Positions 20,615-24,841 of a stretch of 36,961 nucleotides of DNA are shown in pieces. Positions within the stretch are counted from its first letter, which is position 1, and each line of letters begins with the position of its first letter. Where the stretch lies: positions 1 to 36,961 of the forward strand of contig JACRNX010000043.1 of the NCBI GenBank assembly GCA_016214755.1, given 5' to 3'. The translations under genes and the position numbers were made by a program. The stretch is from Candidatus Falkowiibacteriota bacterium. Lineage in GTDB: Bacteria > Patescibacteriota > Patescibacteriia > UBA11705 > JABHMO01. The notes beneath the pieces were generated by a model. The model worked only from the letters and a program-made list of their open reading frames with translations, did no database searches and had not been told where the DNA came from.

Positions 20615-20986
20615 CTAACCTCTTATATTGAAAAGCATCAACGCGATTAAGCATATCGGCAATGCTAACCAAATTACGAACACAAGCCCCGCGAATATGA
20701 ACCAAAATGAAAATATTATCGAACGAAAAACAATCTGCGCCAAGCGCATAAAAAAACTGATAATCCTGCCGTCCCAGCTATATTGCCCGTACATCGGCTT
20801 GAATATGTTTTTGAACCAGACGTCGAGCGACAGCTCGTCGTTCGCCTGCGATAAAGTATCTAAAAAACGACTTGCCGCTTTTTTCACGCCGCTCGAGTAC
20901 CACCATATCGGCCAATACAAAATGTCAAAAATAATATCGCGAAAAATAAATTTTATTGATTTAACGACAACGCTTTCTTGAATCAT
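20615..20986 (-). CDS. Hypothetical membrane protein, directly upstream of the Clp-like gene
   Basis: 123 aa with C-terminal hydrophobic segments; same strand, 31-bp gap to the Clp-like gene. Confidence 0.75.
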   Translation of the reverse strand: MIQESVVVKSIKFIFRDIIFDILYWPIWWYSSGVKKAASRFLDTLSQANDELSLDVWFKNIFKPMYGQYSWDGRIISFFMRLAQIVFRSIIFSFWFIFAGLVFVIWLALPICLIALMLFNIRG

Positions 20987-21067
20987 AATTAATTTATACT
21001 TTTCTGGAATTTATTATACCACAAATAAAGAAATGATGAAATAAAGTTTGGAATTAATAGGCAGTAA

Positions 21068-21141
21068 ATAGAAAGTAGAATCTAGAAAATAGAAAAGCGC
21101 TCTCTAACAAACTTCTATTTTCTATTTTCTACTTTCTAAAT
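21068..21141. repeat. Imperfect inverted repeat made of TAGAAAGTAGAATCTAGAAAATAGAAA-type sequence
   Basis: AATAGAAAGTAGAATCTAGAAAATAGAAA ... TTTCTATTTTCTACTTTCTAAATTC. Confidence 0.6.
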
Positions 21142-21145
21142 TCTG

Positions 21146-21185
21146 TTTAAAATAAAGAAGGGAACCCGTCATGCCGGACTCCCTT
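21146..21185 (-). terminator. Terminator of the large ncRNA
   Basis: Minus strand AAGGGAGTCCG-GCATGA-CGGGTTCCCTT (11 bp incl. 2 wobbles) then CTTTATTTT. Confidence 0.8.
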
Positions 21186-22154
21186 GTTTGTGTGGTTTGC
21201 AGTCGCTATGGCCGCTCTTATTCAGATTGGCCCAGACCCAATACCCAACTGCTTTTACCATCAAAGTAGTGATTAGAAAACTCGCTGGAAACTCTCAAAG
21301 CCATCGCTGACTTTGAGCCCAAACAGACTTTACGGGTAGGCCTAAGCCCTTTTAATGGGAAGACCTCTTACGAGGATCTCCTCACCCAAAATCCGTCTGG
21401 ATTTCTTAAGTTTCCTTTGAATTCCCTCTTCTCTACTTACCGAGAAATTTCATCTGCCTCGCGGCTGAATTACATTTCCCGATCCAGCATCTCTCCTTTG
21501 TCTTCTCGACATTCTTTCTTCAAGTACGACTAATGACGATTTTGGTTCTTCAACGCCTTTGATTTGCCGAACTAACTCGACATGAAGTAAAAGTTTGGAC
21601 TTGCGTCTTTGCTTTCGCTCCTTGCTCTGTTAGTTCCTTGAACCATCGGCTCCAGACCTCAATCAATCATCAATCAACTATTCAAATGACTATCTAAATC
21701 TTTCATTGCCTCTGATTTTCCGAACTGACTCGGCTTGAAACTTGAGTTTGGACTTTCGCCCACTCCCTTGCTTCTCACTTTATCAGTTCTTCCGATCATC
21801 AGCTCCAGATTCAGATTGGCCATCTGTTTGAAGAAAAAACCCTTTCGCTGGCTTGACTCATAATCAAGTTCTGTCTAACCTCTTGACTTTTGAGCTTCAA
21901 GAAAAGTTCCGCCTAACATTTCGATTAAGATTTTTTGACATGTTGCCACGCCCATCATCTCTTTCGTCACGTTAAGTTTCACCTTGCTTGACTCCCTTGG
22001 TCTTAAGGCTAAACTTCCTTCAACTACGAATCGCCCCAGTTACCTTTTGACATTAGAAAAATGTGTTGATGGTGCAAATAGCTGGTTTCGACTAATTTTC
22101 ATAGCCGGCCTTTCTACCTGCCACAGTCTTGTAAAGAGCTTTTCGCGACTGCAA
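21150..22154 (-). ncRNA. Large (~1 kb) structured noncoding RNA candidate
   Basis: Promoter, 10-bp terminal helix (22145-22154 with 21197-21206), internal duplicated domain with compensatory changes, GNRA hairpins, terminator, no long ORF. Confidence 0.88.
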
Positions 22155-22159
22155 TAGCA

Positions 22160-22188
22160 ATGATACACCAATAAAAAAAAGGCGTCAA
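22160..22188 (-). promoter_or_regulatory. Sigma70-type promoter of the large ncRNA
   Basis: Minus strand TTGACG (22188-22183), 17-nt spacer, TATCAT (22165-22160). Confidence 0.8.
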
Positions 22189-22278
22189 ATGCCCCCTGTG
22201 GATAACTTTTACAAGTCAGAAATCGGAAATCAGAGGTCAAAAGTCAGAATTTAAATCCTGTCCCCTAAACGTTTGTTT

Positions 22279-22893
22279 TTACTTCACGTATTCTACAAAC
22301 ACCTCCACAAATCTTTCGAAATCAATATTTGAATTTTTTAAATCTAAATCATCGTAATTAATCACCACCACTGGCGCCAACTTAAAATTGCCGGCCCAGT
22401 CGTCGTATAAATCATTCAAATCCGAAAGGTATTGCTTGGAGATATCCTTTTCAAACTCGCGGCCGCGACTCTGAATGCGCTGAATGATTTTATCAACCGA
22501 CGCTTTGAGATAAATAATCAAATCCGGCGCCGGCAAAATTTTAATGCCTGTTTTGTAAATCGTTTGATAAACATCCCAATCGCGCCGAGCGATGAAACCG
22601 CGCTTGAACATATACTTGGCGAACACCTCCGCGTTTTCATAAAGCGAACGATCTTGAATGACCGATTGCTTCTCGTGAATTAAATTATAATGGTCTTGCA
22701 ACCGTTTGCCGAGAAAAAACATCTGCGAATGAAACGCCCATTTTTTCATGTCAGCGTAAAAATCTTTCAGATACGGATTTTCCGTTACCGGTTCCAGATA
22801 TTGCTTCCAATCAAAATGTTCGGCCAATTTTTTCGTCAAGGTTGATTTGCCGATGCCGATGTTGCCGGCGATGGCGATAAATTTCTTATTCAT
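22279..22893 (-). CDS. Deoxynucleoside kinase
   Basis: MNKKFIAIAGNIGIGKSTLTKKLAEHF, EPVTENPYLKDFY, QDRSLYENAEVFA; start at Met 22893. Confidence 0.92.
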   Translation of the reverse strand: MNKKFIAIAGNIGIGKSTLTKKLAEHFDWKQYLEPVTENPYLKDFYADMKKWAFHSQMFFLGKRLQDHYNLIHEKQSVIQDRSLYENAEVFAKYMFKRGFIARRDWDVYQTIYKTGIKILPAPDLIIYLKASVDKIIQRIQSRGREFEKDISKQYLSDLNDLYDDWAGNFKLAPVVVINYDDLDLKNSNIDFERFVEVFVEYVK

Positions 22894-22923
22894 AGTTTTA
22901 AAGGTTGTAGGTGGTAGTGAGTA

Positions 22924-22952
22924 GTAGGGACAGGGCACTGCCCTGTCCCTAC
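22924..22952. repeat. Palindromic repeat
   Basis: GTAGGGACAGGGCA-C-TGCCCTGTCCCTAC, perfect 14-bp arms. Confidence 0.8.
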
Positions 22953-23092: not shown

Positions 23093-24841
23093 TTATTCGA
23101 GGAGTTCTACTCCTCTTCCAACCCCCGCCTTCAATTGTTTAGCTGACGGTTCAAGCACGACCGACAAGTTGTCGAACGCGGCGAGAGAATAGACATCCTC
23201 TCCCGAGTCAATGTACTCGCCCGTCACCGCGTCGCCCGGCTGGGTGAAAACCAGTTCCAGCGAAATGCCGGCAGTGCCTGCCAGCGCGTGCGGAATGTCT
23301 TTCACCAGCAAATAGTAATTCGCGCCGTCTTTGGCGACGCGCTCAACTATCCCTAGGAATTGCGTCCGCTCGCCTTTTTCAGAAAGCGGCGCGTTGATTT
23401 GCTCAAGGCCGAGTTCAGCCCGCAATTTCACGAAACAGCCGAACGGATTCGCTTCATCCCAATATATCTTTTGAGTCGTGGCGTCAACCAGCGCGACGCC
23501 CTTGAAAGTATTGCTTGCCCCAAGGACAGTGCTCACCCAAATCGCCTGATCGTAAAAGTTGAACAGCATGGGCGCCGTGCCTTTCCATCCTTTATACGCA
23601 AGCTCGTTATTGACGACTTGAAGCACTGCTTCTTCCGTCATTCCTGAAATCTTGTATTCTGTCGCCTTGCCTGTTCTTGTGTGAATATACATCACGCTGA
23701 CAAGAGCGCTGTCTTCCTTGCTGGCAGAAGTAATGCCAGTGAAAAAGTATGGCTCGCCGTCGCTTCCGTAAACAATCTCCACGTAATCCTCGTTTTTGCC
23801 ATACGGCGTAACATCAACCAGCTCGTTCTTTCCCCACCATGAATTCAGCCAGCCGTGAGGAAACTTTCCCCACATTTTCATATAATCAACCACGAATTCT
23901 CGAGGAATTGCGCGGTCAATCCAATCAGGAATTTTGTCCTTTGCGTGGAAGGTAATTTCGCCGTCCGCCGGGTCAACCACAGCCACACCGACGATTTTTT
24001 TGCCCCAGTAACTTATCGTCGGTTCAAAAACAGAAACCACCCACCATGCCTTGCCATTTTCATCTTCTTCAAAAGTGTAATCAGTCAATCCCAGTTTCAA
24101 ATAGCCGTTTGTCCAGAGATGGCGCTCAAGATTCTCGCTGAAGTAGGCGCCCGGTGTATAGACATAGGACTGGCCGAGGACAAGTTCAACTTTGCGGAAA
24201 GGGTCTTCTGCGTTGATTTTCACGTAGCCGGGAACTTTGCCGACTGATGTCCAGACGGAAAAACCATTGTAATCAAGCGGCGCCACGTACCACAGATCGC
24301 CCTTGATTCTCTGCAGGGTCATATATTCTTTGGCAACCTTGAATTGGCTACCGATTGACGCCTCTGCTTCGCCAAGCTGTTTGTCGGCCATGAAAGCCGC
24401 CAGTTCAGGCGGCACGAATCTGATGTGCGCCGGATCGCTCGGCTGCATGTCTTTCTTGAAATCGCGTTTTTCAACTTGGCCAATCAGTTCTCTGTATTCG
24501 CCACTGCGAAACGCGCCCCAGCCGCTCAAAGCGACCACGATAATAATGACGATTCCGACAACAGGAAAAAAGGCTATCCATGTTGGTCTCTCTCTTTCCA
24601 ATCCGTACTCATCGGGCGATACAAAATCTATGACCGCTCCGATAATCCAGTTAATAACAACAGGAAAAGCAAGAAAGCCCCAGAGCGGCCACACCAATGA
24701 AGGACAAGCTTTGTAGAAAATAAACCACCAAAACAGTGTTGTTGTCGCGAAGAGAATGCCTGCGCCAAGAAATTTTTTCCTAATTACAAGCGGCGCTATG
24801 CCAATGGCTGATACCAGTATCGCGAGTAGCAATGCGTACAT
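23093..24841 (-). CDS. Large membrane-anchored protein of unknown function
   Basis: 582 aa; N-terminal TM segments then a large soluble region; SD AAAAGGAGG before ATG. Confidence 0.85.
   Translation of the reverse strand: MYALLLAILVSAIGIAPLVIRKKFLGAGILFATTTLFWWFIFYKACPSLVWPLWGFLAFPVVINWIIGAVIDFVSPDEYGLERERPTWIAFFPVVGIVIIIVVALSGWGAFRSGEYRELIGQVEKRDFKKDMQPSDPAHIRFVPPELAAFMADKQLGEAEASIGSQFKVAKEYMTLQRIKGDLWYVAPLDYNGFSVWTSVGKVPGYVKINAEDPFRKVELVLGQSYVYTPGAYFSENLERHLWTNGYLKLGLTDYTFEEDENGKAWWVVSVFEPTISYWGKKIVGVAVVDPADGEITFHAKDKIPDWIDRAIPREFVVDYMKMWGKFPHGWLNSWWGKNELVDVTPYGKNEDYVEIVYGSDGEPYFFTGITSASKEDSALVSVMYIHTRTGKATEYKISGMTEEAVLQVVNNELAYKGWKGTAPMLFNFYDQAIWVSTVLGASNTFKGVALVDATTQKIYWDEANPFGCFVKLRAELGLEQINAPLSEKGERTQFLGIVERVAKDGANYYLLVKDIPHALAGTAGISLELVFTQPGDAVTGEYIDSGEDVYSLAAFDNLSVVLEPSAKQLKAGVGRGVELLE

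Follow-up and report, generated by a model that had tools for sequence, protein, structure and literature searches.

A putative giant structured noncoding RNA with a DnaA-box promoter and a boxA-like start in a family of Patescibacteria

What occupies the space between a nucleoside kinase gene and a small membrane-protein-like gene in a Candidatus Falkowiibacteriota bacterium? The window analysed here, a contig stretch of 36,961 nucleotides, carries on its minus strand, in this order, the kinase gene, a giant RNA, a gene for a 123-aa protein and a Clp-type ATPase gene (Table 1). We consider it very likely that the region between the first and the third of these holds a real structured noncoding RNA gene with its own promoter, although no expression data are at hand. 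Much of this layout had been claimed in the original prediction, made from the sequence alone, and held on inspection: the minus-strand promoter, the perfectly complementary RNA ends (10 bp, with a duplex energy of -17.4 kcal/mol and p = 0.0002 against shuffled 3′ ends), the inner GCTCTT/AAGAGC pair, the terminator stem with its T-rich tail, all of the internal hairpins it had named, and the motif GGCCAATCTGAAT, said to occur twice and indeed present in two exact copies. The DnaA box, the boxA-like character of the start and an internal tandem duplication had gone unnoticed. Just downstream of the terminator, at 21056-21141, lies an A/T-rich imperfect palindrome (TAGAAAATAGAAAATAG...), pieces of which recur at G000:C53:6583, at C34:12124, in G092 and in G079, so that it looks like a dispersed repeat. 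Elsewhere in the window, 23093-24841 encodes a predicted 582-aa protein with a hydrophobic N-terminus and no Pfam match.

Table 1. Features of the locus, in window coordinates
Feature	Position	Strand	Remarks
Deoxynucleoside kinase gene	22279..22938	minus	Upstream neighbour of the giant RNA; syntenic anchor
DnaA box TTATCCACA	22197..22205	minus	8 nt upstream of the -35
Promoter TTGACG-N17-TATCAT	22160..22188	minus	10/12 consensus matches
Noncoding RNA, ~1.0 kb	21150..22154	minus	Inferred from the -10 (start) and the terminator (end)
Closing helix P1, 5′ strand TTGCAGTCGC	22145..22154	minus	
Closing helix P1, 3′ strand GCGACTGCAA	21197..21206	minus	
boxA-like element GCTCTTTACAA	22129..22139	minus	First six bases double as 5′ strand of the second helix
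Second helix, 3′ strand AAGAGC	21214..21219	minus	Pairs with GCTCTT
Structural module A	21683..21832	minus	
Structural module B	21530..21679	minus	Tandem copy of module A, same fold
Intrinsic terminator with T-rich tail	21148..21185	minus	11-bp stem (6 GC) at 21185-21158
123-aa membrane-protein-like gene	20615..20986	minus	Downstream neighbour; own TATAAT at 21018-21013; syntenic anchor

No open reading frame of 60 aa or more overlaps 21200-22030, as had been predicted, and the six frames of the RNA stretch, with stops masked, gave no Pfam match even at E ≤ 1. A decayed protein gene, which the prediction itself had named as an outcome that would refute it, was thus looked for and not found, and we reject it. 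The related possibility that the RNA is merely a leader or attenuator of the downstream 123-aa/Clp operon can draw on its position, since a two-gene operon follows immediately and in the same orientation. However, the terminator ends the RNA, a separate TATAAT precedes the 123-aa gene in the genomes read, and in other genomes the RNA adjoins prmC, tRNA-Asn, glyA or other genes. Operon leader and decayed gene alike are therefore very unlikely.

Nor did the RNA match a known family: no Rfam model reached its gathering score, OLE, ROOL and GOLLD were all absent even among permissive matches, and the low-scoring matches that did arise in the window RNA were taken as chance, so that the family stays unrecognised, as in the original prediction. 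Like tmRNA and RNase P RNA, this would be a structured bacterial RNA with paired ends, and those two are known as stable; both, however, are located elsewhere in the same genome, the tmRNA at G000:C62:7701-8089 and the RNase P RNA at G000:C1:14110-14447. ARAGORN found no tmRNA, with its tRNA-like domain and tag ORF, in the window, and no Rfam model of tmRNA (RF00023), RNase P RNA (RF00010), 6S RNA or group I or II introns matched in the region. The predicted lack of tmRNA, RNase P and intron hallmarks thus held on these Rfam and ARAGORN searches.

The predicted minimum free energy of the minus strand is -356.3 kcal/mol; its dinucleotide shuffles average -250 +/- 8.4 kcal/mol (z = -12.6), and its complement, the plus strand, gets no lower than -221.7 kcal/mol. 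GNRA loops cap half of the hairpins (5/10), and GNRA and UNCG tetraloops together number 5, versus 0.8 in shuffles. Within the body we find a degenerate tandem duplication of ~150 nt, whose core (RNA positions 346-453 and 499-606; window 21809-21702 and 21656-21549) is 69% identical and scores 47 bits, where the shuffle maximum is 29. Extended to 150 nt, modules A and B each fold alone into the same long arm, and 42 of the 48 pairs of copy A are kept in copy B despite differences at 57 of 150 bases. When the same substitutions were placed at random in 5,000 trials, 32.6 pairs survived on average and 40 at most, so that none of the placements did as well as the observed one; the reverse comparison, from B to A, kept 41 of 47 pairs, a figure that none of 5,000 random placements reached. 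Taken by themselves, the modules' six double changes were not above expectation (699 and 469 of 5,000). We regard this retention of pairs as the window's strongest evidence of selection on structure. The RNAs of L044 and G002, two of the relatives described below, also harbour internal duplications, distinct from this one (80.6 and 64.4 bits).

Is the gene inherited? The original prediction proposed to find homologs by sequence and then to examine covariation, a route that failed in its simple form because the bodies beyond the first 26 nt cannot be aligned even between genera of one family. Searching 144 relatives by blastn with the window RNA returned only short low-complexity or repeat matches; phage sequences gave no match, and plasmids only two of ~35 bases at E = 0.9. 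The exact 5′ pattern had nine matches in viral contigs, none of them with a similar promoter and most reading like coding sequence, and with three mismatches allowed it matched the 384 genomes of the class about as often as a reversed control, those matches that were read yielding no new members. Loci in relatives were instead located by synteny, with the 123-aa protein as anchor, and not by sequence or structure. Another five genera carry, at the syntenic place, noncoding sequence of 0.66-1.25 kb that has a promoter and a terminator: L044 from Candidatus Kuenenbacteria bin.190 (~1.25 kb), L016/L047 from Candidatus Falkowbacteria RIFOXYC2_FULL_48_21 (~1.05 kb), L017 of genome G001 (~1.2 kb), L014/L045 (~0.66 kb) and L013/L043 from Parcubacteria group bacterium GW2011_GWA2_40_23 (~0.68 kb). 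We take the named genomes to be members of the GTDB class ABY1. An absence of homologs, which would have counted against the prediction, was therefore not borne out.

The kinase gene lies directly upstream of the RNA in the window, L044, G002, G003 and G005, and ends ~1.6 kb further upstream in G001. Genome G004 (L019/L051), of the same family, has at the syntenic site a promoter, a hairpin RNA of ~150 nt and a terminator, without a giant RNA and without a DnaA box, and in the sister family (G006) the kinase and 123-aa genes are 188 bp apart with no RNA between them, an empty site. The 123-aa protein also occurs in genomes whose corresponding site has no RNA, so a dedicated link between the two is not obvious. 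This protein family is without a Pfam match, is found in 33 of 38 relatives, and its gene is mostly followed by one for a Clp-type ATPase that has hydrophobic stretches at its N-terminus.

What, then, is conserved in the six genera? All share TTATCCACA, followed by TTGAC and a -10, with 8-10 nt between DnaA box and -35 in the alignment; for G005 this spacing was measured to the first TTGAC, and the promoter in use may instead lie 7 nt beyond it. The window and L044 show 92% identity over the first 26 nt. The bodies, in contrast, are 37-46% identical between genera, the level of shuffled sequences, unlike the tmRNAs of the same family at 59-69%, and covariation across genera is not testable because they do not align. 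RNA ends are complementary in most of the six, with differing sequences, as in TTGCAGTCGC/GCGACTGCAA of the window and TTACCATC/GATGGTAA of G001. P1 alone is not significant in L044, G003 and G005; the combined p for P1 complementarity is 7.6e-6, with the caveat that the 3′ stretches were selected manually. Pairing that survives changes of sequence, a criterion for a structured noncoding RNA gene, is met by modules A and B and by this combined P1 value. Each of the six syntenic RNAs has 3-13 GNRA/UNCG tetraloops against shuffle averages of at most 1.3, and their fold z ranges from -2.6 to -14.2. For the L044 RNA the margin over shuffles is small (z -1.7 to -2.6), and the antisense strands of the L044 and G002 RNAs fold as well as the sense strands or better. 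The same layout thus recurs at the same place in six genera, namely a DnaA-box promoter, a start with a P1 strand and a boxA-like element (weak or unrecognisable in two, see below), a long-armed body with hyperstable loops, the second P1 strand and a terminator. That a structured noncoding RNA gene is inherited within the window's family is, in our assessment, very likely, and the original prediction of a large structured RNA that belongs to no recognised family and has a promoter and terminator of its own is well supported; only the transcript itself is without data.

Two rival readings of this conservation pattern deserve attention. In the first, the leader or the act of transcription alone matters: the leader would serve to titrate DnaA, RNA polymerase or NusB/S10, while the body, though folded, would be filler that only needs to avoid translation, Rho termination and decay. 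The limitation of conservation to the promoter, the DnaA box and the first ~26 nt, together with the shuffled-level identity of the bodies, speaks for it, but filler has no need of 0.6-1.4 kb, of arms capped by tetraloops, of a closing helix or of duplicated modules that conserve pairing, and we hold this reading to be unlikely. The second is a sponge RNA of the CsrB kind, sequestering a protein through many copies of one binding hairpin. CsrB-type sponge RNAs carry repeated hairpins in varying number, and the giant RNA likewise has many similar hairpins, a variable number of them and duplicated arms. However, its loops and bodies share no motif: the loops are of the general GNRA/UNCG kind, and no 7- or 8-mer is enriched across the six bodies beyond shuffles. 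This reading, too, is unlikely.

The conserved start reads GCUCUUUACAA in the window and GUUCUUUACAA in L044. Its boxA-like element matches 11 of 12 positions of the degenerate boxA that we used (p = 0.001, shuffles) and, counted by eye, 10 of 11 positions of the published gamma-proteobacterial consensus GYTCTTTAANA (PMC5725501). Such a match beats shuffles in the window, L044, G002 and G001 (p 0.0005-0.021), is weak in G003 and is not recognisable in G005, so that five of the six genera share a boxA-like start. Similar elements are carried by rRNA leaders of the same clade (GAACTTTAACAA in G003 and GATCTTTACAAT in G006). In rRNA operons, a long structured transcript comes with boxA and with a leader-trailer helix (PMC10250234), and the giant RNA resembles rRNA operon leaders in its strong promoter, its boxA-like element near the start and its paired ends (PMC5725501, PMC10250234). 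It differs from them in that its unit contains no rRNA and has its own terminator, and in that its closing helix spans ~8-10 bp as opposed to a long leader-trailer helix. That the element is an rRNA-type antitermination signal is inferred from this likeness, without data on NusB/S10 binding or read-through, and is about as likely as not.

Do such RNAs exist in other families? We searched the 384 class genomes with a sequence model, R1, that covers the box, the promoter and the 5′ end. It matches many ordinary promoters, whose users include lexA, mraZ, rpoB and rRNA genes, and the DnaA-box promoter is therefore a common type in the class, unspecific to the giant RNA. Several of the best R1 matches lead into long, noncoding, hairpin-rich sequence and then a terminator, and a second model (R2) gave further candidates. 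Ten rRNA loci were rejected, seven as 16S rRNA (L280, L268, L332, L338, L351, L362, L367) and three as 23S rRNA (L292, L357, L360; L292 by sequence only). Their removal left ~20 likely members, mostly of 0.6-1.4 kb, in families f26, f50, f84 and perhaps f13, f28 and f48. None of the class-wide candidate RNAs matched Rfam over its length, and at most one was found per genome.

The neighbours of the candidate RNAs are kept within lineages: prmC lies downstream in G219, G205, G286, G117, G157 and probably G381, tRNA-Asn beside the RNA in G330, G265, G272 and G370, glyA in G183 and G290, and a serine-protease-like gene in G101 and G284, the last two gene names being read from translations without testing. 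The tRNA-Asn of G370 is apparently interrupted by a group I intron (L339:149-417, minus; 72 bits). One congeneric pair, L339/L340, is 86.8% identical over 683 positions, with perfectly conserved blocks adjoining replaced ones, and its changed pairs are kept somewhat above random placement (155 and 23 of 3,000), modest support from the sole alignable pair. The RNA of L293 folds no better than shuffles (z +1.0).

Two observations touch the promoter type rather than the RNA. DnaA-box and TTGAC promoters precede mraZ, lexA and rpoB, genes again read from translations, in the family and order (L175, L181, L182, L185, L187; promoters at ~1501), which could amount to a DnaA regulon. At L201 (G001:C2:33056), a DnaA-box promoter is followed by several hundred bases without a long same-strand ORF, possibly a further RNA gene.

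It remains possible that the class-wide set consists of several unrelated structured RNAs with one promoter type, and that only the six syntenic ones form a family. Box and promoter dominate the search models. Outside the family, members had been chosen first on their promoter and then on their tetraloops, and counting these loops therefore adds no independent evidence. Splitting all model matches by ORFs revealed no tetraloop difference (p = 0.34), a failure to separate tetraloop-rich RNAs that we ascribe to spurious ORFs in GC-rich RNAs. Against this rival, a start of the TTACCGTC / TCGC type recurs directly after the promoter in f1, f50, f26, f13 and f48, and size, closing pairs, terminator and occurrence as a single copy where found are the same. 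We thus judge giant RNA members across the class to be likely, and homology of the RNAs across families likely as well but not proven.

How does this RNA compare with the large RNAs already described? The comparison with OLE, ROOL and GOLLD in the original prediction is fair for size, while a common origin or function is unsupported. Like these, the window RNA would come from a large bacterial noncoding RNA gene and adopt a complex multi-arm fold (PMC12286853); OLE binds the membrane protein OapA, and the window RNA adjoins a membrane-protein-like gene. Unlike these, it matches no Rfam model, and whereas those families are defined by covariation on alignments, the giant RNA bodies cannot be aligned between genera. 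For all three, RNA-only homo-oligomers have been described (PMC12286853).

Taken together, we lean, without expression data, towards an autonomous giant structured noncoding RNA gene whose product is made as a stable RNA with rRNA-style synthesis. In such a scheme, the boxA element would recruit antitermination of the NusB/S10 type and let the long untranslated transcript be completed, as in rRNA operons; P1 would tie the RNA ends together and stabilise the RNA; and the DnaA box may link its synthesis to replication or growth. The body would act by shape rather than sequence, evolving fast by substitution and whole-arm duplication, and a role as scaffold or as a self-assembling particle like GOLLD, ROOL or OLE is possible, albeit inferred. 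A bolder reading, to which we would give clearly less than an even chance, is that many bacteria of one Patescibacteria class carry one such giant RNA with an rRNA-style leader, its body selected only for shape and size and rebuilt by arm duplication. No other large bacterial RNA is, to our knowledge, known to combine selection on shape and size alone with rebuilding by arm duplication. The literature searched holds no description of such an RNA in Patescibacteria, but as most subscription papers and preprints lay outside that search, this is no proof of novelty.

Large structured bacterial RNAs are few. If true, the present reading would place a giant RNA widely in a class of tiny-genome, mostly uncultured bacteria. 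If real, it has stayed hidden from homology-based RNA discovery since its body defies alignment, betrayed only by its promoter, its first ~26 nt and its neighbouring genes, which suggests leader models combined with synteny as a way to hidden RNA genes. It would also offer a concrete case in which to ask how the function of an RNA can persist when almost none of its sequence does.
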